Program-made: the position numbers and the translations under genes
Notes under the pieces: model-generated
Told to the model about the DNA's origin: nothing
Databases searched by the model: none
The model's input: the letters and a program-made list of their open reading frames with translations, nothing else
Shown here: positions 2,263-13,021 of the stretch, one piece after another
How positions within the stretch are numbered: position 1 is the first letter of the stretch
How the letters are laid out: the number at the start of each line of letters is the position of its first letter
Origin: Paenibacillus sp. Soil522
Lineage (GTDB): Bacteria; Bacillota; Bacilli; Paenibacillales; Paenibacillaceae
Reading direction: 5' to 3'
DNA: 64,000 nt
Assembly (NCBI RefSeq): GCF_001428245.1
Contig: NZ_LMRV01000099.1
Location: forward strand, 124,864-188,863

Positions 2263-2388
2263 TTGTTTTACCGCGATATCATCCACATTCCTGAATGGTC
2301 CGTGTATCTGCAGGCTTTGATTTGCCTCTTGATTCCTCTCATTATTTCTTATGTAGTTAACCGGTTTCGTCAAACAGAGGATGAGTGA
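2263..2388 (+). CDS. 41-aa single-TM small protein coupled to the germination operon
   Basis: This short ORF starts at TTG 2263, with AAGGAG 10 bases upstream, and encodes 41 residues. The product has an aromatic N-terminus ([11 protein letters not shown]), one hydrophobic segment (about residues 15-32, [15 protein letters not shown]) and a charged tail ending RQTEDE. Its stop TGA (2386-2388) overlaps the GTG start of the A subunit (2385), a GTGA arrangement typical of translational coupling. Some GerA-type operons encode a small membrane 'D' protein, but those I know have two TM segments and usually follow the operon. It may be a comparable accessory subunit. No homologue is recognised. Confidence 0.5.
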
Positions 2389-3845
2389 TCCCGATGCATG
2401 AAAATATGTTTGAGAAGCTTGCTGCGATTCGTGAACAAATGATGGACCACTCGGATGTCATGATACGGGAATTTTCAATTGGCCGCAAGGGCATACCGGC
2501 AGCTATAGTGTTTGTGAATTGCTTGGCTGATCACGAGCTTATCGATCAACATATTTTACGGACATTAATGTCCTTGCGTGACCAAGACTTGTCCCTTACA
2601 AAATCGTATCTCAAGAATCAAGTGTTATCCGTAAGTCAAATATCGGAAACGAATGATATAGATGAACTGATGCCGAAGGTATTAATCGGTACTACGGCGC
2701 TAATCATCGATGGCCTCCCGGAAGCCTTTATGATCAACACGGTAAAAAATAAATCAAGAAGCATAGAGGAACCGATATCTGAAGCGCTGGTTAGAGGGCC
2801 GAGGGCGGGTTTTGTGGAGACCTTGTCAGATAATACAGCACTTCTGCGCAGACATGGTGAAAACGCCAGCTTAGCATTTATGAGTATGCAGGTCGGCGCA
2901 CGAGCCAAGAAGGAGCTGATTATTGCTTACATTAAAGATGTAGCCGATCCGGATTTAGTCGAAGAGGTTAGGAGGAGAGTCAGCAAAATCGATATCGATA
3001 ATCTTCCCGAATCGGGGTATGTCGAGCAATTAATTGAGGACGATTTTTTAAGTCCATTCCCGCAGATTCAGAGCACGGAAAGACCTGATCGGGTAATAAG
3101 CGCATTGATGGAAGGGCGGGTCGCCATCCTGCTCGACGGTACGCCGTTCGCCTTAATCGCTCCTGTTACCTTTAGCATGCTGCTGCAATCGCCTGAGGAT
3201 TACTACGAGCGTTGGCTGGCGGGCTCTTTGCTTAGAATATTGCGTTTTTTCGCTGCTTTAATCGCTTTATTGACACCAGCCCTGTATATCTCTTTCATTT
3301 CGTATCATCCGGGCTTAATTCCGACGAAGCTGGCTATTTCCATTGTAGGCGCCAGGGTAGGAGTTCCTTTTTCTTCGCTTGTAGAGGCGTTAATTATGGA
3401 GATAGCCATTGAAATATTACGTGAGGCGGGACTTCGTTTACCCAAGCCTATAGGTCCGGCAATGGGCATTGTTGGCGGTTTGATCATCGGCGAAGCAGCT
3501 GTGCAAGCGGGTATCGTGAGTCCGATTCTCGTTATCGTCGTAGCGGTAACTGCCATTTCGTCCTTTGCGATACCGCAATTTAGTGCAGGGATTGCATTAC
3601 GGATGCTGCGTTTTGTTACGATGTTCTGCGCTGCTGTATTCGGGTTGTACGGCGTTGTGTTGTTTTTCTTATTGTTATGCGCGCATATCGTCAAGCTGAA
3701 AAGCTTTGGCGTGCCTTACGCGAGCCCGGCAGTTCCTTATCGCGTTAGCGATTGGAAAGATTTTTTTGTTCGCATGCCTATTTTCATGATGAAACGAAGA
3801 CCTGAAATGCTGCATACAAAAAATCAGAGGAGAAAAAAGAAATAA
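2385..3845 (+). CDS. GerA-family spore germinant receptor, A subunit
   Basis: A 486-aa integral membrane subunit of a germinant receptor located in the inner spore membrane. The hydrophilic N-terminal half carries family signatures such as [13 protein letters not shown] and [16 protein letters not shown]. The second half has several TM segments and the conserved stretches [12 protein letters not shown] and [17 protein letters not shown]. Start GTG 2385 is favoured by overlap with the preceding small ORF; ATG 2394 is an alternative. It is first of an A-B-C operon, the order of gerA in B. subtilis. The germinant is not deducible. Expression would be expected in the forespore (sigma-G), but no convincing sigma-G site was found. 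Confidence 0.92.
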
Positions 3846-3869
3846 TATGGCGTTGAAAGAAGGCTCATC

Positions 3870-4961
3870 ATGACAAATAGCACGAAGGATCGAATTACCA
3901 CCGTCCAAACAGCTGTAATCGTATCTAATTTTATGTTAGGTTCAGGAATTCTGACGTTGCCCAGAGCAGCCGGGACAGAGGTGGAGACTCCAGATGTATG
4001 GATATCCGTGCTTATTGGAGGCATAATCGCGATTGCGGCAGGCGTGATCATGGCAGTGTTATCCAAATCACATGTTGGCCGATCTTTATTTCAGTATAGC
4101 CAGGACCTCCTTGGAAAATGGATAGGAGGAGTCATCAGTATCGCGTTTGTTATTTATTTTTTTATGACAGCAGCGTATCAGATTCGAGCTCTGGCTGAAG
4201 TAGCGGCTTTTTTCTTACTTGAAGGCACTCCGACGTGGGCAATCTTCATGGTATTTATGTGGGTAAGTCACTATTTGATGACTGGCGGCATCAATGCGAT
4301 TGCGCGTTTGTTCGAGATCATCCTTCCAATAACAATTGTCATCTATTTGTTAGTGATGTTAATGGCATTAAAAATTTTTGAGCTGGACAATCTGCGGCCT
4401 GTATTGGGACAAGGAATTATGTCTGTTTTAGCAGGCTTGAAAGCAACTTCGTTATCCTTTATCGGCTTTGAAATCATACTCATACTGACTGCTTTTATGA
4501 ATGAACCTAATAAATCGGTCAAAGCGGTTGTTTATGGGATCGCGATACCGCTGTGTCTGTATCTTCTAACCGTTGTTATCGTTATAGGATGCTTATCCTT
4601 GGATGGTGTTCTGACTAGATCATGGCCGACGCTAGATCTCGTCCGAAGCTTTGAATTGTCGGGCTTGATTTTTGAACGGTTCGAATCTTTATTGCTGGTC
4701 ATTTGGATCATGCAAATTTTTTCATCCTACACGAGTGCTTTTTATGCAGCTTCGCTTGGAGTATCACAGGTTTTCAATATAAATATGAATAAATGCCTGT
4801 ATATCCTGCTTCCGATTGTATTTATCATTGCAACACTTCCACAAAATACAACGGTTTTATTTGCATCCGGAGATTTGCTGGGCAACATCGCTATTTATTT
4901 ATTTATTTTAATACCTTTCCTATTGTTGCTGACGAAATGGAAGAAAAGGAGCAAAGGATGA
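3870..4961 (+). CDS. GerA-family spore germinant receptor, B subunit
   Basis: A 363-aa member of the GerAB family, distantly related to amino acid permeases of the APC superfamily, and largely hydrophobic with about ten TM segments. The N-terminus contains the typical LGSGILTLPRAAG stretch. It is thought to participate in germinant recognition within the receptor complex of the inner spore membrane. It follows the A gene by 24 bases, and its TGA stop (4959-4961) overlaps the ATG of the C gene (4958), so translation is probably coupled. Confidence 0.92.
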   Translation: MTNSTKDRITTVQTAVIVSNFMLGSGILTLPRAAGTEVETPDVWISVLIGGIIAIAAGVIMAVLSKSHVGRSLFQYSQDLLGKWIGGVISIAFVIYFFMTAAYQIRALAEVAAFFLLEGTPTWAIFMVFMWVSHYLMTGGINAIARLFEIILPITIVIYLLVMLMALKIFELDNLRPVLGQGIMSVLAGLKATSLSFIGFEIILILTAFMNEPNKSVKAVVYGIAIPLCLYLLTVVIVIGCLSLDGVLTRSWPTLDLVRSFELSGLIFERFESLLLVIWIMQIFSSYTSAFYAASLGVSQVFNINMNKCLYILLPIVFIIATLPQNTTVLFASGDLLGNIAIYLFILIPFLLLLTKWKKRSKG

Positions 4962-6175
4962 TGGTATTCCGTCGTATTAACTGGGGTCGTTGGTTTCTAT
5001 CTTGCCTTTGCTTACTTACGCTGCTCGTTCAAACGGGCTGCTGGAGCAAGGATGAGATTGAAGATCTAAGTATTTATGTGGGCATGGGATTGGATATGGC
5101 GAATGAAACGGCATTAGAAGATAAATTGGACAAGTTAGGATCAGGCTCTAGGAAAAAAAACTTGATTACATATACCGTGCAAATCGTTGATAAGCAATCG
5201 GAGGCAAAAAGCGGAGATACCAAAAGTAATCCAAGCTCCAAACCTTACTTAAATGTTTCTGTCACAGGGGATTCTCTCTTTGAAATGATTAGAGAATTTT
5301 CTACACGAATGGAGCGCCCTCTTATTGGTCATCACCTGAAAATAATCGTCATTAATGAAGATCTATCACGGCGTAACAATATGAATAATCTACTTGATTT
5401 CATTTTAAGGGATAACGATATACGGCCCAATTGTCTCGTCTTTATGAGCAGCGGCTTATCGAGAAAAGTGCTGGAGGCAAAAGGGAATTCGATTATTCCT
5501 TCCTTTCGCATTATAGGTATGGTCGATAATCGCTACCGGTCATTAAAAATATTGCCGTCCATGTCACTGATAAAGCTTGAAGCTAAAATGAATAGTAGAT
5601 CCAGTTATATGCTGCAAAATATAATTGCTGCTGACGGGGAAGTGAAGTTTTCGGGAGCAGCGGTTATTAAAGGTAAAACACAAAATTTTAGGGGGCGGTT
5701 ATCCGAAGAGGAGTTATTAGGCGTAACGTGGCTAAGCGGAAACGGCAAAGGGGGAGACGTCAAAAGCTATGATGAAAAGACAAAGCAGGTAATGACATAT
5801 GAACTGAAATCAATGAAAAGTAAAATCCATTCTTATGTAGATGGCGATAAAATAAAATTTCATGTAAACATACAATCCGAAGGGCGTTTGATCGAAGAAT
5901 GGATCAACTTAAACGAACCAATCCAAGCTGAATTAATGAAGAGGGCTGAGCAAGCAGCGGAGAAAGAGATCAAGCGAGTAATAAAGCTTGGATTAAATAA
6001 AATTCAAAAAGAATATAAAACCGACGTCGTCGGCTTCGGCACCCGATTAAGCATTGAACACCCTAAGATGTGGCAAAAGGTAAAGAAGGATTGGGATAAT
6101 GTTTTTAGTGATGTTCCAATCACCTATAGCGTAAAGCTTGCGATTACAGATACGGGTGCGAAGCAGTCCCGATAA
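4958..6175 (+). CDS. GerA-family spore germinant receptor, C subunit lipoprotein
   Basis: A 405-aa lipoprotein subunit of the receptor. The N-terminus has a basic head, a hydrophobic core (FLSCLCLLTLLV) and lipobox QTGC, followed by CWSKDEIEDLS, a typical GerC mature start. The open frame extends upstream to 4793, but that part overlaps the B gene. ATG 4958 overlaps the B stop by 4 bases and has AAGGAG upstream; ATG 4961 is equally possible. The C-terminal region KRAEQAAEKEIKRVI...VVGFG matches the family. Last gene of the operon, followed by a terminator. Confidence 0.9.
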   Translation: MMVFRRINWGRWFLSCLCLLTLLVQTGCWSKDEIEDLSIYVGMGLDMANETALEDKLDKLGSGSRKKNLITYTVQIVDKQSEAKSGDTKSNPSSKPYLNVSVTGDSLFEMIREFSTRMERPLIGHHLKIIVINEDLSRRNNMNNLLDFILRDNDIRPNCLVFMSSGLSRKVLEAKGNSIIPSFRIIGMVDNRYRSLKILPSMSLIKLEAKMNSRSSYMLQNIIAADGEVKFSGAAVIKGKTQNFRGRLSEEELLGVTWLSGNGKGGDVKSYDEKTKQVMTYELKSMKSKIHSYVDGDKIKFHVNIQSEGRLIEEWINLNEPIQAELMKRAEQAAEKEIKRVIKLGLNKIQKEYKTDVVGFGTRLSIEHPKMWQKVKKDWDNVFSDVPITYSVKLAITDTGAKQSR

Positions 6176-6332: not shown

Positions 6333-7274
6333 TTGCGAAAGAGACAATATGAGGTGTCGGATTGCTATGGAATCGAAATAGAGCTCTTTTCCATTTGGAT
6401 GAAAAATAAAGGGATGACCAAGTCGACGCATCAAGCCTACATAAGCGACGTAAGCGATTTTCTCCAGACTGTGCACCCGAAGGAAACGAAGCATATAGCG
6501 AAAATGGATATTATGCGTTATATGGCCGTATGCCGCGAGAAGGGAGCGGGGGATGAAGCGCGCAATCGAAAGCTGTCGTCCTTGCGTTCATTTTTTAAGG
6601 CAATGATTGAGATGGAGCATTTGGAAGCGAATCCTGCAGCGCTAATTGCGAAGTCAAAGCAGGAGAAAAACCGCATCCCGGTTTATTTAGAGGAAAATGA
6701 GCTGGAGGCGCTGCTCCACACGATAAAGGGCAAATATTATATCCGTAATGCAGCCATCGTTCTATTAATGGCGTATGCCGGCCTCCGCGTAGGGGAGGTG
6801 CACCGGATGAACTTGCAGGATTTTCGCCAGGACGGCTCGATTCATATTTTAGGAAAAGGGCGCAAGTGGCGCGTCGTACCGCTGCCGGACGCCTTGCAAC
6901 ACGTTTTGAATGAAGCGATTGCAGAACGCATGGAATCAAGGCAGAATAAGGAGCAGCCGTTTTTTGTATCGCAATTCGGTCGCAGGCTATCGATTCGGAT
7001 GATTCAGACTGTAGCCGACGATACGATTAAGCAGCTAAAGGAAGCGATGCCGTCACTTGCGGATAAACGGCTCTCCAGCCATAAGCTTCGCCATTCGTTC
7101 GCGACGATGCAAATTCGCAGCGGCACAGACATTCGGACGCTGCAGGAGCTGCTCGGGCATGCGAGCATCGAAACGACACAAATTTATACGCATATCGACA
7201 ATAAGCAGCTTCGGCATGCGATGAACAACATTTCAAGCAAGATTCCTATGAAATTCCAAAAACAATTAACGTAA
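6333..7274 (+). CDS. XerC/XerD-type tyrosine recombinase
   Basis: A 313-aa site-specific recombinase with an N-terminal SAM-like DNA-binding half and a C-terminal catalytic half. Catalytic residues are visible: Arg in AGLRVGE (about 151), Lys in GKGRKW, His-x-x-Arg in HKLRHSF (about 250-253), His in LGHAS (about 276) and the Tyr nucleophile in TQIYTHI (about 285). Start TTG 6333 has TGGAGG about 8 bases upstream. Base usage resembles the surrounding chromosome rather than the AT-rich segment to its right. Its last codons overlap the first dif-like site, so it borders the ger cassette. It could be a chromosomal Xer protein or an integrase. Confidence 0.88.
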   Translation: MRKRQYEVSDCYGIEIELFSIWMKNKGMTKSTHQAYISDVSDFLQTVHPKETKHIAKMDIMRYMAVCREKGAGDEARNRKLSSLRSFFKAMIEMEHLEANPAALIAKSKQEKNRIPVYLEENELEALLHTIKGKYYIRNAAIVLLMAYAGLRVGEVHRMNLQDFRQDGSIHILGKGRKWRVVPLPDALQHVLNEAIAERMESRQNKEQPFFVSQFGRRLSIRMIQTVADDTIKQLKEAMPSLADKRLSSHKLRHSFATMQIRSGTDIRTLQELLGHASIETTQIYTHIDNKQLRHAMNNISSKIPMKFQKQLT

Positions 7275-7291
7275 ATATAATTATGTAAACT
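7264..7291 (+). other. Left Xer/dif-like recombination site
   Basis: 28 bp with an 11-6-11 layout: left arm AATTAACGTAA, centre ATATAA, right arm TTATGTAAACT. The right arm equals the XerD half of the B. subtilis dif site as I recall it. The left arm matches the inverse of the right arm at 8 of 11 positions, the imperfect dyad typical of dif. It overlaps the stop codon of the recombinase gene. A second copy lies at 12040-12067 in the same orientation. Confidence 0.65.
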
Positions 7292-7663
7292 AAATAAAAA
7301 TTGAGGGTAATGCTCATGTCAATATCTATTTTGTGATATAGAAGCTGAACCCTTGCAAAACACAGGGAAGCACAGTAAGGAAGTAAACAAGAAGCCGGGG
7401 TGAGTAATTTCGCACATCCCGGCTTTTTTCGTGTTTCTAGATAAAATCAAATTTGTGTATAAACAGAGTGTCTCTTACTTAAGTAAATGTTCTAAAATAT
7501 TAAGCGAATATTCTAATCTGTACTTAGTGAAAGAATACTTATAATAGTAAATGGATGGATATCTTAATCGTATAAAAAAACTGGAAAATAGATATGCTAA
7601 ATAAATAGGGAACACATCAACGCTTCTTTCAATCACACTACACACTTGGAGTGTTATAAGAAA
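7292..7663. other. Intergenic region inside the cassette, left end
   Basis: AT-rich DNA with no convincing ORF. It contains the hairpin at 7392-7429 and, further right, an A/T-dominated stretch that should hold the promoter of the second ger operon. No sigma-A or sigma-G promoter could be assigned with confidence. Confidence 0.4.
7392..7429 (+). terminator. Hairpin with T-run in the cassette left end
   Basis: The arms AAGCCGGG and CCCGGCTT flank a loop with a further GTG/CAC pairing and are followed by TTTTTC. About 100 transcribed bases lie between the dif-like site and this hairpin. It may terminate the recombinase transcript or a short RNA. Confidence 0.6.
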
Positions 7664-9310
7664 ATGAACAGTGCATGGAATCGGTTAACAAAAACGCGAA
7701 AAAAAAGAAAGCAGACACTACAGTATGAGGAAACAGAAATAAACGCAAACAAACAGGAAATTAGTGAACATTTAGATGGAAACCTTACAAATATTAAAGA
7801 AGCTTTAGGCAACAGCAGTGACTTAGCCATTCGTGAATTTAAAATGGGTAAACCATCCCTGCATAAAGTTGCGATTGTATATATAAATGGGTTAGCCGAT
7901 AATGAACTCATTGGCCGTTTTATCATAGAAAAACTAATGGGTAACGTAAACAATACTGAAAGTGTTGATCCCGAATCACCGAGCCAATTATTTACATACA
8001 TTAAAGAGAATATTTTAATAGTTGGGACAGTTGAGGATATAACGGACTGGAACAAAATGCTGCTTTTTCTCTTATCTGGACAAACCATTCTTCTGATTGA
8101 TGGCTGGAATCAAGTCATTAGCTGTGCGGCACAAGGCGGGGAGATAAGAGCCATTACAGAACCTTCGGGAGAACCTGCTATTCGGGGGCCTAAAGAGAGC
8201 TTTGTTGAGGCGCTTATAACCAATACGGCCATGGTTCGCCACAGAATTAAAAGCCCTAATCTATGGGTTGAAACCATGAAGCTAGGGAAGATCACACAAA
8301 CAGATGTGGCCATTATGTATATAGAAGGGATTGTCAATGACAAGCTTCTTACTGAAGTCAAAGAGCGGCTGGGTAAAATTGAAGCTGATGAGATTACTGG
8401 TTCCAATACAATTGAAGAATGGATTAATGACGACACATGGACACCTTGGCCAACTATGTTAACAACGGAACGTCCGGATGTTGTGGCTGGAAATTTATTG
8501 GAAGGACGTGTCGCTATTTTCGTTGATGGGACACCGATTCCTTTAATTTTACCAGCGACATGGAATCAGTTTTTTCAAACGGCGGAAGATTATTACATGC
8601 GTTGGAATATTGCCAGCTTTTTGAGACTTCTACGATTTGTTTCATTTTTAATCACCCTTTTTGGACCGGCACTTTTCATTGCGTTTATTTCCTTTCACCC
8701 TGAAATGATTCCAACCCCTTTATTAGTAAGTCTGACAGCACAGCGCCAGGGAATTCCATTTCCGGTATTTATAGAGGCTTTGTTAATGGAGTTTACATTT
8801 GAGATTTTGCGGGAAGCCGGTGTTCGGATGCCGCGTCCGATTGGTCAGGCGGTTTCGATTGTTGGCGCACTTGTATTGGGAGAAGCAGCTGTTTCAGCAG
8901 GAATTGTATCAAGTTCCATGGTCATCGTGGTGGCTGGGACAGCAATTGCCAGTTTTACAATGCCCCATCATTCCCTGATGGATGCGACACGTTTACTTCG
9001 ATTTTTGATGATGATTTTGGCAGCTTCTTTTGGTCTTTACGGAATTGGACTCGGAGTCATTGTTTTAGTGGCACACACTTGCAGTATACGCTCTTTTGGT
9101 ATTCCGTATTTGGCACCCTTTACCCCGCTCATTTTTGCTGATTGGAAAGATACCTTGATTCGTTTACCAAAACCGTTTTTGTCAACACGTCCACGATTAA
9201 TCAGTCAAACGAAAATAAAGAGGACGGGTAATATCCAAAATCTCGGGCCGTCACCAAGGGAAAATCAAACAAAGGACAACGAATCAAAGAGGGGTTCCAA
9301 TGAAACATAG
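7664..9310 (+). CDS. GerA-family germinant receptor, A subunit (second operon)
   Basis: A 548-aa A subunit with a longer, lysine-rich hydrophilic N-terminus than the copy at 2385. Family signatures include VYINGLADNELIG, AIRGPKESFVEALI, REAGVRMPRPIGQA and LGEAAVSAGIVSS, followed by C-terminal TM segments. Start ATG 7664 has TTGGAG 12 bases upstream; TTG 7646 is an in-frame alternative. The operon order A-C-B is that of gerK in B. subtilis. Its base usage is clearly AT-richer than that of the first ger operon, which suggests separate ancestry and horizontal acquisition. Confidence 0.92.
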   Translation: MNSAWNRLTKTRKKRKQTLQYEETEINANKQEISEHLDGNLTNIKEALGNSSDLAIREFKMGKPSLHKVAIVYINGLADNELIGRFIIEKLMGNVNNTESVDPESPSQLFTYIKENILIVGTVEDITDWNKMLLFLLSGQTILLIDGWNQVISCAAQGGEIRAITEPSGEPAIRGPKESFVEALITNTAMVRHRIKSPNLWVETMKLGKITQTDVAIMYIEGIVNDKLLTEVKERLGKIEADEITGSNTIEEWINDDTWTPWPTMLTTERPDVVAGNLLEGRVAIFVDGTPIPLILPATWNQFFQTAEDYYMRWNIASFLRLLRFVSFLITLFGPALFIAFISFHPEMIPTPLLVSLTAQRQGIPFPVFIEALLMEFTFEILREAGVRMPRPIGQAVSIVGALVLGEAAVSAGIVSSSMVIVVAGTAIASFTMPHHSLMDATRLLRFLMMILAASFGLYGIGLGVIVLVAHTCSIRSFGIPYLAPFTPLIFADWKDTLIRLPKPFLSTRPRLISQTKIKRTGNIQNLGPSPRENQTKDNESKRGSNET

Positions 9311-10508
9311 AACATTCATCATTCTTTTTATGCTTCTATCTACTGTATTGCTGTCAGGCTGTTGGGATCGTGATGAATTACAAGACCTTGATCTCGTAAG
9401 TGCTATTGGAATTGATGAAGGCGGCGATGATGTGGAAAACAGATATCGCGTTACGGTCCAAATTATAAATGAAGGACAAATAGCCGGTGCGCCAGGGCAA
9501 GGAGGGAAAGCAGAATTGGCTCCTGTTACGACCTATTCGGATACAGGAAGCACCGTTGCGGAGACACTCCGAAAAATCACGCTAAAGACATCTAATGAAC
9601 TTTTTTTTCCTCATGTCCAATTGATGGTGATTGGGGAGGAGCTTGCGAGAAATAAAGGGATTCAAGATTTGTTTGATTGGATTGAACGTGATTCCAAATT
9701 TCGTACTCTATTTCCTATATTAATTGTCAGAGATAATACAGCAATGAATGTTCTCCAAATCACGACACCTTTAGAGACCGTTCCTTCTGCCAAGATTGTT
9801 GGCAGCCTAGAAACTACAAAAAAAATCTGGGGAGAGTATGCAAGTACCCGCGCTGATAAAGTCATTCAACAATTAGGCGGAGAAGGAGCGAATTTAACGG
9901 GGATTCGGATTACCGGAGACCCCAAAAAAGGGAACAGTTTAACAAACGTTCAACAAATATATCCAAAGGCTGATATAGAGATAAAGGGTCTTGCCATATT
10001 TAAAAAGGGTAAACTCATAAAATGGTTAGATGGAGATTCGGCACGCGGTGCAACATGGATTAATAATGAATTGACAAAAACGATTATAAATCTTGATTGT
10101 GAAAAGAAGAAAAAAGGGATTGCAGTAGAAATGATGCGCTCTAAAACGAAAATTAAAGTGGAAATAAGAAATAAAAAACCCGTAATTTATATCAAAGTTC
10201 GATCAGAAGGCCACATCTCAGAAGTCCATTGCCCAATTGATCTCGGTAATCATGAAACCATTCAAAAACTTGAAAAACAGATGGAGAAGGAAATAAATGA
10301 GGAAATCATGATAGCATTAGAAGCGGCCAAAGAACAAAAAAGCGATATTTTTCGTTTTGGCGAATATGTCAACCGTGAGGACTCAAAATTGTGGAAGAAG
10401 ATAAAGAAAAGATGGGATGATGAAATCTTTCCCGAAACAGAAGTCAACGTTAACGTACAAGCGTTTATTCGACGGTCAGGATTACGAACGAAACCGTATT
10501 TAAAATAA
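9300..10508 (+). CDS. GerA-family germinant receptor, C subunit lipoprotein (second operon)
   Basis: 402-aa lipoprotein. Signal peptide with hydrophobic core FIILFMLLSTVLL, lipobox LSGC and mature start CWDRDELQDLDLVSAIGID, the classic GerC sequence. The start overlaps the A subunit by 11 bases, with AGAGGGG just upstream, so expression is probably coupled. The region 9400-10500 is markedly A-rich (many AAA and ATT codons), unlike the genes outside 7.3-12.1 kb. Confidence 0.92.
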   Translation: MKHRTFIILFMLLSTVLLSGCWDRDELQDLDLVSAIGIDEGGDDVENRYRVTVQIINEGQIAGAPGQGGKAELAPVTTYSDTGSTVAETLRKITLKTSNELFFPHVQLMVIGEELARNKGIQDLFDWIERDSKFRTLFPILIVRDNTAMNVLQITTPLETVPSAKIVGSLETTKKIWGEYASTRADKVIQQLGGEGANLTGIRITGDPKKGNSLTNVQQIYPKADIEIKGLAIFKKGKLIKWLDGDSARGATWINNELTKTIINLDCEKKKKGIAVEMMRSKTKIKVEIRNKKPVIYIKVRSEGHISEVHCPIDLGNHETIQKLEKQMEKEINEEIMIALEAAKEQKSDIFRFGEYVNREDSKLWKKIKKRWDDEIFPETEVNVNVQAFIRRSGLRTKPYLK

Positions 10509-10546
10509 GGACAATTCAAGTCATAACGAAGGGAGGTTTCCACGCG

Positions 10547-11650
10547 ATGGAAAAAGCGAAGATTAGTGTTATTCAACTATTTGCTCTGATGTTTTTATTT
10601 GAACTTGGAAGCGCGCTTGTCGTAAGTCTTGGCAGTGATGCCAAAAAAGATGCCTGGCTTGCGGTTCTTTTAGGACTGTGCGGTGGAATTGTTTTGTTTT
10701 TTATTTATTACTTTTTATTTCGCCAATATCCAAATCTGCCGTTTACCGGATATGCCAGAAAAATATTTGGCAAGTACCTTGGATGGATGATTGGCTTGTT
10801 ATACACGGTATACTTCTTGTACGCATCTGCCCGGAATTTGCGTGACTTCAGTGATTTGCTGCTTACGTCGGCATTGCCGGAAACACCGTTATTGGCGATC
10901 AATATCTTATTAGTTCTTGTCATTTGTTATGTGCTTTATCTAGGGATTGAAGTAGTAGGGAGAACAGCCGAAGTATTTATTGTTATTTTGATCTTTATTG
11001 GACTTACAGGAAATTTTTTCATCGCTATTTCAGGTAATATTGATATCCATAATATACAGCCATTTCTAGAAAATGGATGGAAACCAATCATAACTACAGC
11101 CTTTCCGTTGATTACATATTTTCCTTTTGCAGAAATGTTTGTCTTTACGATGCTGCTTCCTTATTTAAATCGGCCTGAATTAGTGAAAAAAGTTTGGCTG
11201 TCTGCTTTGATTGTGAGTGGTCTCATCTTAAGTTATACAGTAAGTTTAAATATCGCCGTTCTCGGTGTTGAAGAAGTGGAGCGATCTACTTTTCCTTTGT
11301 TATCAACCATTGGAAAAGTCAACCTTTTCGAATTTATCCAACGACTCGATTCCCTTGTTGTCTTTACCTTTCTAATTACGATGTTTTTCAAAATATCCAT
11401 CTTTTTTTATGGTGCAGTCATCGGAATAGTCGATTTGTTCAAGTTAAAAAAACATCAACACATTCTATTGCCAGCTGGGGTGATACTCATTTTTTTATCT
11501 ATGGCGATTGCTTCAAATTTTTCGGAACATATTGAAGAAGGCCATGACATTACATCGTATTACATTCACATTCCTTTCCATATCATCATCCCGTTGTTCA
11601 TGCTGATTATTACCATCATTCGCAACCGTTTCAAAAATAAAGCTAACTAG
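10547..11650 (+). CDS. GerA-family germinant receptor, B subunit (second operon)
   Basis: 367-aa GerAB-type permease-like protein with about ten hydrophobic segments. The N-terminus (ISVIQLFALMFLFELGSALVV) is characteristic of the GerKB/YndE-like branch. ATG 10547 is preceded by AAGGGAGG at good spacing. Third gene of the A-C-B operon. Its last 8 bases overlap the end of the convergent small membrane protein gene at 11643-11879. Confidence 0.92.
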   Translation: MEKAKISVIQLFALMFLFELGSALVVSLGSDAKKDAWLAVLLGLCGGIVLFFIYYFLFRQYPNLPFTGYARKIFGKYLGWMIGLLYTVYFLYASARNLRDFSDLLLTSALPETPLLAINILLVLVICYVLYLGIEVVGRTAEVFIVILIFIGLTGNFFIAISGNIDIHNIQPFLENGWKPIITTAFPLITYFPFAEMFVFTMLLPYLNRPELVKKVWLSALIVSGLILSYTVSLNIAVLGVEEVERSTFPLLSTIGKVNLFEFIQRLDSLVVFTFLITMFFKISIFFYGAVIGIVDLFKLKKHQHILLPAGVILIFLSMAIASNFSEHIEEGHDITSYYIHIPFHIIIPLFMLIITIIRNRFKNKAN

Positions 11651-11879
11651 AACCATTTTGTTTGTTTTTTTTATCTTTTATGATGATTACGATTTGTTGA
11701 CCAATTGTAAGCAATAAAAAAAATCCTAACATTACATATTCTCCAGGTTCTATTACCCAAAACGGGTTTAGTAAATGGAATAATGCGTGAGAGAGATTAA
11801 TGCCTAAAAGAAGATCCATTCCTACGCTAAGTGCATTGGTTAATATAAGAATGAATATAAATATTCCTAACACTTTCAT
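11643..11879 (-). CDS. Two-TM small membrane protein, candidate germination D-type protein
   Basis: 78 aa with two hydrophobic segments (about residues 3-28 and 48-68) and a lysine-rich tail (KDKKNKQNGSS). AAGGAG precedes the ATG by 8 bases. GerA-family operons of several Bacillus species carry a short two-TM 'D' gene (for example gerKD) after the ABC genes. This protein has the right size and topology but lies on the opposite strand, convergent with the B subunit. It is inside the dif-flanked AT-rich segment, so it probably travelled with the operon. The D-subunit role is an inference from size, topology and location. Confidence 0.6.
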   Translation of the reverse strand: MKVLGIFIFILILTNALSVGMDLLLGINLSHALFHLLNPFWVIEPGEYVMLGFFLLLTIGQQIVIIIKDKKNKQNGSS

Positions 11880-12039
11880 ATTTTTTTCTCCTTATTTATA
11901 TGAGTTAAATATAGTCTTTATCAAAAGGCAATCTTTTATGTAGTTGCTAATCTAAAAGTGTTCCACTTACATAGCGACTGTTATTGTGAAAGTTAACCAC
12001 CCTGAGCCAAGTCCCTGCTAAGAGCAATAAAACACAATT

Positions 12040-12067
12040 TAATAACGTAATTTTAATTATGTAAACA
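12040..12067 (+). other. Right Xer/dif-like recombination site
   Basis: 28 bp with left arm TAATAACGTAA, centre TTTTAA and right arm TTATGTAAACA. It matches the site at 7264-7291 at 22 of the 24 positions from 12043 to 12066 and has the same orientation. The two differences are in the centre. The AT-rich ger segment ends here, and ordinary host-like sequence resumes beyond it. Confidence 0.65.
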
Positions 12068-12094: not shown

Positions 12095-12141
12095 TAAAAA
12101 AAGCTGTTGACGGATACGGGAGGTATCAGTCATCAGCTTTT
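12095..12141 (-). terminator. Terminator of the sugar isomerase gene
   Basis: Read on the minus strand, the arms AAAAGCTGATGAC and GTCAACAGCTTTT form a hairpin with one mismatch, followed by TTTTT. Confidence 0.7.
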
Positions 12142-12181
12142 CTGTCATAAATGAGACCGAGCAGCAACTAGCCTGCTTCTT

Positions 12182-13021
12182 TCATCGCGTTGCCACTATG
12201 AATGGCTCAACAATGGTTTTAACTCGTTCAAGCCCTTGCCACATATCCCCTGGACCATCATAAATGAGAACATAGGCGCGGTTATAGCCTACTTCCTGCA
12301 CCTTGTTCAGGTAGGAAATAAGCTCATCTTTATCCGGAAACCCAGCTTCATCATACGTTGGTTTCACATGAACCGATACACTCAGATGGGCTGTCGCACC
12401 AATTTCCGCTATTTTTCCCGCACCGTGATAATTGCCGAAATCGGTTATAAACCCTATTCCCTTACCGGCTTTAGTAAGCAGCTTGAGACTGCTCTCGGCT
12501 GTAGAGGTAAGAGATTTAAAATTTTCTGTAATGACGTGAACGCCTTTGGATGCAGCATAGTTCGCGAGCTCAGCCAAAGAGGCTGCCGAAATTTGAAGCG
12601 CTTTCTCATCGGTGGGCGCAGCTTCGCCGGCAATAACGCGAATTTGCTTGGCGCCGCAGAGAGACGCAATAGCTATCCATTTACGGATAAGAGAAAGGTC
12701 TGCTAATCTTTTTGTTTCATCGGAAGCCGTTAAATCGCCGTAGTCGAGAAGCAGCGTGTCGAATTTGACGCCAGCCGCTTGAAAAGAGCTGCGAAGCTGC
12801 TCTAGATAAGCCGGCTCCGTCGATGGAAAATGAAAATGACAAACTTCGATCGCTTGATAGCCTCTTTCAGCTGCTTCGGCAGGCAGCTCAAGCAGTGTAA
12901 AAATTTGCGGCTGTTCCTGCTCCTTTGTCTGATGGCTGCCGGTTTCCGCATCCCACACGGTCCAGCGAAGAGGACCCAGTATTCGATGCAAGCTCCATGT
13001 GCTTATAGATAGGTATGACAC
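12182..13021 (-). CDS. Sugar phosphate isomerase/epimerase (xylose isomerase-like TIM barrel)
   Basis: 279 aa of the AP endonuclease 2/xylose isomerase-like family. The features are the N-terminal SISTWSLHR strand, the Glu in YQAIEVCHFHFPS, the Glu in VHVITENF, and C-terminal metal-site-like residues in FITDFGNYH and SVHVKPTYDEAGFP. Start GTG 13021 has GAGGCGGGA upstream. The substrate is unknown; family members act on keto-sugars, inositols or tagaturonate-type intermediates. It is monocistronic, with its own terminator. Confidence 0.75.
   Translation of the reverse strand: MSYLSISTWSLHRILGPLRWTVWDAETGSHQTKEQEQPQIFTLLELPAEAAERGYQAIEVCHFHFPSTEPAYLEQLRSSFQAAGVKFDTLLLDYGDLTASDETKRLADLSLIRKWIAIASLCGAKQIRVIAGEAAPTDEKALQISAASLAELANYAASKGVHVITENFKSLTSTAESSLKLLTKAGKGIGFITDFGNYHGAGKIAEIGATAHLSVSVHVKPTYDEAGFPDKDELISYLNKVQEVGYNRAYVLIYDGPGDMWQGLERVKTIVEPFIVATR

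Follow-up and report, generated by a model that had tools for sequence, protein, structure and literature searches.

How did the genes of a complete germinant receptor come to lie between two dif-like sites, directly behind a gene for a tyrosine recombinase? The question is raised by a 64,000-nucleotide stretch of Paenibacillus sp. Soil522 (contig NZ_LMRV01000099.1, positions 124,864 to 188,863; hereafter the window), in which the recombinase gene x313 ends within the first of the two sites. Comparison of sequences makes it probable that Xer-type site-specific recombination placed a receptor cassette from the Bacillus family in a dif-like site lying at the 3′ terminus of x313. The original prediction, a foreign germinant receptor cassette between dif-like sites, is supported in its overall reading: neither relatives that all keep the receptor operon here without sites, nor an unshifted composition, nor a motif recurring many times at random was encountered.

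The sites lie at 7264..7291 (AATTAACGTAA-ATATAA-TTATGTAAACT) and 12040..12067 (TAATAACGTAA-TTTTAA-TTATGTAAACA), and were found by core-pattern and whole-genome pattern searches. Each is 28 bp long with an 11-6-11 layout, and both are on the + strand, i.e., in direct orientation. They are identical at 23 of 28 positions, the mismatches being at positions 1, 3, 12, 14, and 28, and at 22 of 24 over positions 4–27, exactly as had been claimed for them. The core pattern has just these two exact matches in the window, while 0.04 are expected by chance with three mismatches, and none of 100 shuffles reached two; in the 6.4-Mb genome, the 28-bp pattern with up to three mismatches finds three sites and the control none. 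Chance is therefore no explanation for the sites, and the segment is bounded on both sides by a 28-bp Xer-type site, as a dif module should be. The right arm of the first, TTATGTAAACT, is presumably the XerD half of Bacillus subtilis dif, and it fits the right arm of the canonical sites described below.

Between the sites, a receptor operon in the order A-C-B and a small gene were found, as predicted. The operon has A, B, and C genes of normal length on the + strand: gerA2 (7664..9310; GerA, 617 bits; the ATG at 7664 was chosen as start, the listed open reading frame, or ORF, opening at 7646 with TTG), gerC2 (9300..10508; Spore_GerAC and its N-terminal domain, TIGR02887 over cut-off), and the permease-like gerB2 (10547..11650; Spore_permease, TIGR00912 over cut-off). 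An ORF on the − strand (11643..11879) encodes a hydrophobic protein of 78 amino acids (aa) that has no Pfam or NCBIfam match over threshold. D subunits have been described as two-transmembrane proteins of some 77 aa whose genes are part of, or next to, receptor operons (available part of PMC4661057), and by analogy the 78-aa protein is a possible D subunit. Among the cassette ORFs no transposase was found, and no phage, replication, or transfer gene was recognised.

Related genomes harbor the same locus with a single site. Eighty named loci with x313 were fetched, the closest of which belong to Paenibacillus and to two strains that bear the label Bacillus sp. All of the eight closest (L045–L052) have one site at the 3′ end of x313 and no cassette, which is the empty locus that the original prediction had proposed to look for. 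Their gene order is x313, site, a FhuF-like gene (labelled from L045, where the match is weak and under the cut-off), and a TIM-barrel gene; upstream of x313, dinG is present in seven (it was not found in L048 within the stretch covered) and another receptor operon, ger1, in six. In pairwise alignments, complemented by blastn, the 60-bp left flank in all eight matches the left of site 1 at 0.65–0.83 vs. 0.45–0.55 for the left of site 2, while the 100-bp right flank in seven matches the right of site 2 at 0.63–0.70, each above the highest of 50 shuffles, vs. 0.51–0.56 for the right of site 1 in all eight (shuffles in the single-site scan of the named loci preserve base composition only). Since the flanks of the relatives match the left of site 1 and the right of site 2, the insert, 4776 bp between corresponding points of the sites, starts and stops at the sites; presence and absence at one site are thus precise, with the right flank so placed in seven of eight.

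The composition of the cassette shifts as sharply as had been supposed. Its guanine-cytosine (GC) content is 0.380 vs. 0.436 and 0.443 in the 5-kb flanks, its tetranucleotide distance from the contig is 0.397 vs. a mean of 0.161 (standard deviation 0.032) for 205 overlapping windows of equal length, and none of these deviates as much in either measure; the ger1 operon, at 0.191, is ordinary. The gerC2 product matches proteins of Bacillus fengqiuensis and Bacillus sp. ISL-46 at 82%, proteins of Priestia abyssalis and Ectobacillus funiculus at 80%, and one further database protein is 95% identical. In 51 genus genomes, the best non-self match is 44%, from the second operon of the same genome, and the best-scoring matches in other genus genomes are 40–42%. 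The 78-aa protein has 57 homologues, its own copy included, with named hosts such as Alteribacillus, Bacillus, and Ectobacillus; 13 of the 57 are on contigs as long as one bearing a gerC2 homologue, so that, as far as equal size indicates linkage, the two genes seem to travel together. These comparisons support a foreign ancestry of gerC2 and the 78-aa gene, two of the four cassette genes, and the receptor is apparently of Bacillus-family origin.

Sites of this type extend well beyond the strain. With one mismatch allowed, they were found in all 24 genus genomes, at 52 distinct places by hand tally and one to four per genome, while the reversed-pattern control gave none in 23 genomes and one in G009. 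In the 21 genus genomes bearing x313, 44 of 48 places are within 35 kb of it on the same contig, by hand tally among the matches listed; clustering across the family was judged among the matches listed as well. The family has a site match in 175 of 197 genomes and x313 in 151 at E 1e-50, once each in all but two, and one site match in the complete genome G556 is outlying. A site is located within 200 bp of x313 in all 19 close orthologues vs. 1.6 expected at random positions, by which x313 as a chance neighbour of the site is rejected, and somewhere in the fetched locus in 43 of 61 distant ones. The opposite extreme, in which site and x313 are inseparable, is also rejected: G007 is without x313 among the matches listed, yet has a site, which adjoins homologues of the FhuF-like and TIM-barrel genes.

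There are loci with several sites and other genes between them. At least two separate successive sites beyond x313 are found in eight of the 19 close loci (L053–L059 and L063), a count that excludes L061, whose sites overlap at an offset of 20 bp, and L062, where 8.6 kb separate them. In six of the eight, the spacing is 39–333 bp; L063 has 0.9 kb with short ORFs only, and L055 (P. arenilitoris) has 3.5 kb with a GC content of 0.385 in a locus of 0.540, where two ORFs (174 and 164 aa), neither matching Pfam, are accompanied by a few smaller ones, and this DNA is unrelated to the cassette of the window. The richest case is L199, with six sites at 5859, 5908, 5969, 8903, 12526, and 13992, whose segments contain two APH-family genes with a small gene, an ATP-grasp gene with a transporter and a short gene, and one further gene. 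A YebC gene and a hydrolase are between the sites of L198, a transporter (by eye) between those of L197, and an Mrr-type nuclease between those of L202 (GC 0.349 in a locus of 0.445); the segments of L197 and L198 are close in GC to their own loci and not foreign-looking. Adjacent sites less than 15 kb apart, in the window and the 80 named loci, have the same direction in 23 cases, the opposite in seven, and are unclear in 18; the corresponding numbers in 20 further loci, a partly overlapping set, are 14, one, and four. On these sequences, the locus is most likely a platform for dif modules.

Not everything fits this platform. Four of the 48 sites in the 21 genomes are farther than 35 kb from x313 or on another contig, 46 of the 197 family genomes are without x313 at E 1e-50 and 22 without a site, and the reversed controls match once in four of the 197 (hand reading). 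Only 11 of the 61 distant orthologues have a site within 200 bp of x313, vs. 4.8 expected, and 18 have none at all in the fetched locus. Neighbours in opposite orientation exist in both sets. Because the named loci and the numbered genomes overlap, their counts are interdependent. Sites close to x313 served to build the first site profile, which makes profile scores near x313 partly circular; the whole-genome pattern searches are independent of that profile.

Some arrangements stand apart. In L058 and L059 (10762–11073), three to four dif-like sites recur every 39 bp beyond x313 with nothing between. In L053 (11520–13199), a glutaminyl-tRNA synthetase-like ORF of 559 aa (by eye) replaces the FhuF-like gene; it has a tandem pair of sites, 60 bp from one another, on one side and the TIM-barrel gene on the other, and a second site to close the segment is missing. 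In a distant clade, x313 of L078 (sites at 6903 and 12739), and similarly that of L079–L083, is flanked by two dif-like sites some 5.8 kb from each other; an AraC-like gene is near one, and the other is roughly 100 bp upstream of an NlpC/P60-like gene.

Which recombinases work at these sites? The 313-aa product of x313 (6333..7274, + strand; Phage_integrase, E 3.9e-36) is encoded by a resident gene whose stop codon is within site 1, as the original prediction had said of it. Its scores are far below the cut-offs of all models compared: 205 bits for XerC (335), 193 for XerD (330), 104 for XerS (267), and 136 for the integron integrase (265), by which it is not of IntI type. R152, K175, H250, R253, H276, and Y285, which we take to be of catalytic type, are in invariant columns across 25 sequences. 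A maximum-likelihood tree of 30 proteins sets x313 in a separate group (100/99), distinct from XerC (96/92) and from XerS, and places the canonical Xer proteins of six family genomes, with one from family f6, alongside XerD (99/97); the tree program warned of possible attraction between the long branches of x313 and XerS. That x313 is the XerC of the cell is rejected by its score and its place outside the XerC clade. The strain's own canonical Xer exceeds the XerD cut-off even as a 278-aa piece, and XerC over the curated cut-off is found in none of 19 family genomes vs. eight of 11 other genomes of the order.

Genomes outside the family show the canonical form of the site. AC(G/T)TCCGATAA-N6-TTATGTAAACT occurs once each in G025, G027, G031, G034, and G035, all with XerD and four with XerC over cut-off, while with up to three mismatches it is absent from G000, G001, G007, G011, G029, and G036. 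The palindromic, x313-type site is absent from G027, G031, G034, and G035; G025 has XerC, a XerD, x313, and both kinds of site, tens of kilobases apart. The right arm is constant between canonical and window-type sites, and the left arm differs, being neither AC(G/T)TCCGATAA of the Bacillales type nor the B. subtilis arm. The claim of dif-like Xer sites stands, with the correction that the left arm departs from canonical dif. From the constant right arm and the differing left arm, we infer XerD and x313 as a pair, and these two would perhaps work the platform. That the recombinase gene is outside the cassette holds, with the amendment that it is probably part of the system. A wider proposal, to which we give somewhat less than an even chance, is that Paenibacillaceae replaced XerC by x313 near dif, with a hybrid pair with XerD, an adapted left arm, and an integron-like platform for multi-gene cassettes including germinant receptors. 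A family apparently without XerC yet with dif-type sites makes the replacement a directly testable question, and if it is true, receptor cassettes gained or lost would alter which signals wake the spore.

Several genomes tell against so clean a division of arms and partners. The XerC of G034, one of the five canonical-site genomes, reaches 332 bits, under the cut-off of 335; G026, G028, G030, and G033 have XerC over cut-off, yet no canonical site with up to three mismatches. The canonical-site search gave one reversed-control match in G000 and a doubtful sixth match in G032. G028 is without a strong x313 among the matches listed, yet has two weak palindromic sites, and G032 has one palindromic site together with two control matches.

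Taken together, the incoming DNA would have been the 4776-bp cassette of Bacillus-family origin with a complete receptor (A, C, B, and perhaps D), possibly as a circle with one site. Xer-type recombination would have inserted it into the dif-like site at the 3′ end of the resident x313, leaving one site per side in direct orientation; XerD may act on the constant right arm and x313 on the left arm, and the cassette may still be able to leave. We infer Xer mobility of the cassette both past and present. Against insertion from outside, the right flank of L046 matches the right of site 2 at 0.55, no better than shuffles, and the window is without the FhuF-like gene of the relatives, so the right flank was altered by a separate change as well. 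Furthermore, no donor appeared: 398 class genomes yield only the own genome at E 1e-140, the relatives of gerC2 in 94 plasmid records are all below 60%, and phage records gave no match in a search for near relatives. A motif scan of viral contigs found 22 stretches with a dif-like motif, in which 17 window proteins had no tblastn match at 1e-5; thus no vehicle was found. Seven of these contigs (L253, L260, L261, L263, L266, L271, and L272) have one dif-like motif in common, and L255–L259, L262, L264, and L269 form a second group with one common motif.

Other histories of the segment were weighed. The receptor unit may have arrived by homologous recombination or a transposon with the sites being incidental, as the ger operons near x313 without bounding sites, e.g., ger1 and that of L068, would suggest; however, homology to relatives breaks at the sites and the cassette ORFs include no transposase, which makes such a route highly improbable. 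Slightly less credit still can be given to the palindrome being the operator of a DNA-binding regulator instead of a recombination site. The copies about 40 bp upstream of a XerS-like gene in six genomes and those roughly 100 bp upstream of the NlpC/P60-like gene in the distant clade would suit an operator, whereas the restriction to one to four places per genome, mostly close to x313, the 11-6-11 layout with a canonical right arm, and the DNA inserted between copies would not. Least probable of all is an old receptor unit at the locus that relatives lost by deletion between the sites. Such a deletion, the sites being direct, would likewise leave one site, but eight relatives are without the unit, its composition is foreign, and the closest named relatives of gerC2 are of the Bacillus family.

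A variant of the mechanism concerns only the proteins. x313 might act alone, without XerD, as a single-recombinase unit like XerS/difSL or like an integron integrase with its attachment site. XerS/difSL and XerH/difH are such gene-linked units (available part of PMC5357621), the constant adjacency of the site in close orthologues agrees with this, and some sites are nearly perfect palindromes, as a single protein would prefer. On the other hand, the right arm is the canonical right arm of five genomes with XerD, and G004, G007, and G020 have a site without x313 among the matches listed. We consider action of x313 alone unlikely, though deserving of attention, and prefer insertion by Xer-type recombination in which XerD would take part.

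A working dif would be expected near the replication terminus. In the single-contig genome G011, the GC skew changes sign near 3.70–3.71 Mb, and the only two dif-like sites within 3.60–3.88 Mb are at 3.856 and 3.874 Mb, 2.0–2.3% of the genome from the switch; a survey of the distance between dif and switch puts one standard deviation at 0–1.39% and reports no outlier beyond 3% (available part of PMC3025954). In G019, the switch is between 3.12 and 3.25 Mb and x313 at 3.105 Mb, and the contig of the window itself has no GC-skew switch. From G011 and G019, the locus appears to be near the terminus, and the dif-like site there is a candidate for the working dif.

Similar systems are known elsewhere. 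In Acinetobacter, Xer-site-bounded modules occur on plasmids and, as now reported, in chromosomal arrays too (available part of PMC12907356, also for what follows on this genus). Like those pdif/dif module islands, the present loci are chromosomal, with genes enclosed by 28-bp Xer sites that follow one another, in short multi-gene modules that need no internal recombinase. Acinetobacter sites alternate between C/D and D/C, with resistance genes in the cargo, whereas the Paenibacillaceae sites are mostly in one direction, the cargo is a germinant receptor, and a resident Xer-type gene adjoins. Integrative mobile elements exploiting Xer recombination (IMEX) integrate at dif through host Xer proteins and, like the cassette, leave a site on each side and are without an integrase (available part of PMC5357621); unlike in IMEX, no phage, replication, or transfer gene is recognised in the cassette. 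With integrons the locus shares a tyrosine recombinase gene beside the first of a row of sites bounding changing genes, and it differs in the double-arm dif-like sites, the score of x313, and a whole operon in one cassette. XerS/difSL and XerH/difH units similarly have the recombinase gene beside the presumed site (same part of PMC5357621), while x313, with its 313 aa, is unlike XerS in score and clade. Germinant receptors on accessory DNA are also known as plasmid-borne ger operons, in Priestia and others, whose C subunits, on which the comparison was made, are below 60% to gerC2. The top-ranked open-licence full texts gave no account of such Paenibacillus cassettes or of germinant receptor cargo, which is weak evidence of absence; by the literature examined, dif modules were already known in Acinetobacter, and the host family and the cargo would be new. 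For spore-formers, this is a concrete and checkable route to trade whole germination receptors, and hence spore-waking signals.

The surroundings of the cassette are as follows. Upstream of gerA2, a strict sigma-G-like pattern is absent and a loose one matches once. A terminator-like inverted repeat is seen just right of site 2 (12096..12142; sequence and alignment), and most of the eight relatives have its counterpart on the right of their single site; the TIM-barrel gene of the conserved right flank (12182..13021, − strand) was identified by profile search and the gene order of relatives. On the left flank, outside the cassette, is the ger1 operon (A-B-C; 2385..6175, + strand), recognised by profile search, relatives, and composition; this operon between dinG and x313 is present or absent among relatives without bounding sites (L050, L051, L053, L054, and L055). 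Other ger operons are found downstream of x313 in L068 (13189–17239, P. pasadenensis) and L107 (10956–14753, P. vini); no dif-like site was found next to either.

The third dif-like site of the genome, with two mismatches, is at C99:105812-105839 (L003:1501-1528), 26.3 kb upstream of site 1 and outside the window; it precedes a divergent gene of XerS type (366 aa; 390 bits vs. a cut-off of 267) by about 40 bp. The same arrangement was found in five of 20 fetched XerS loci of relatives, and as a general feature of XerS-like genes it is rejected, being limited to these five and the own genome. In L125, L130, L132, L134, and L143, a different stretch upstream of XerS is common by eye, GTAACC...AATTACAT...TTTGCTAA or TTTACTAA, and is perhaps the XerS site in those genomes.

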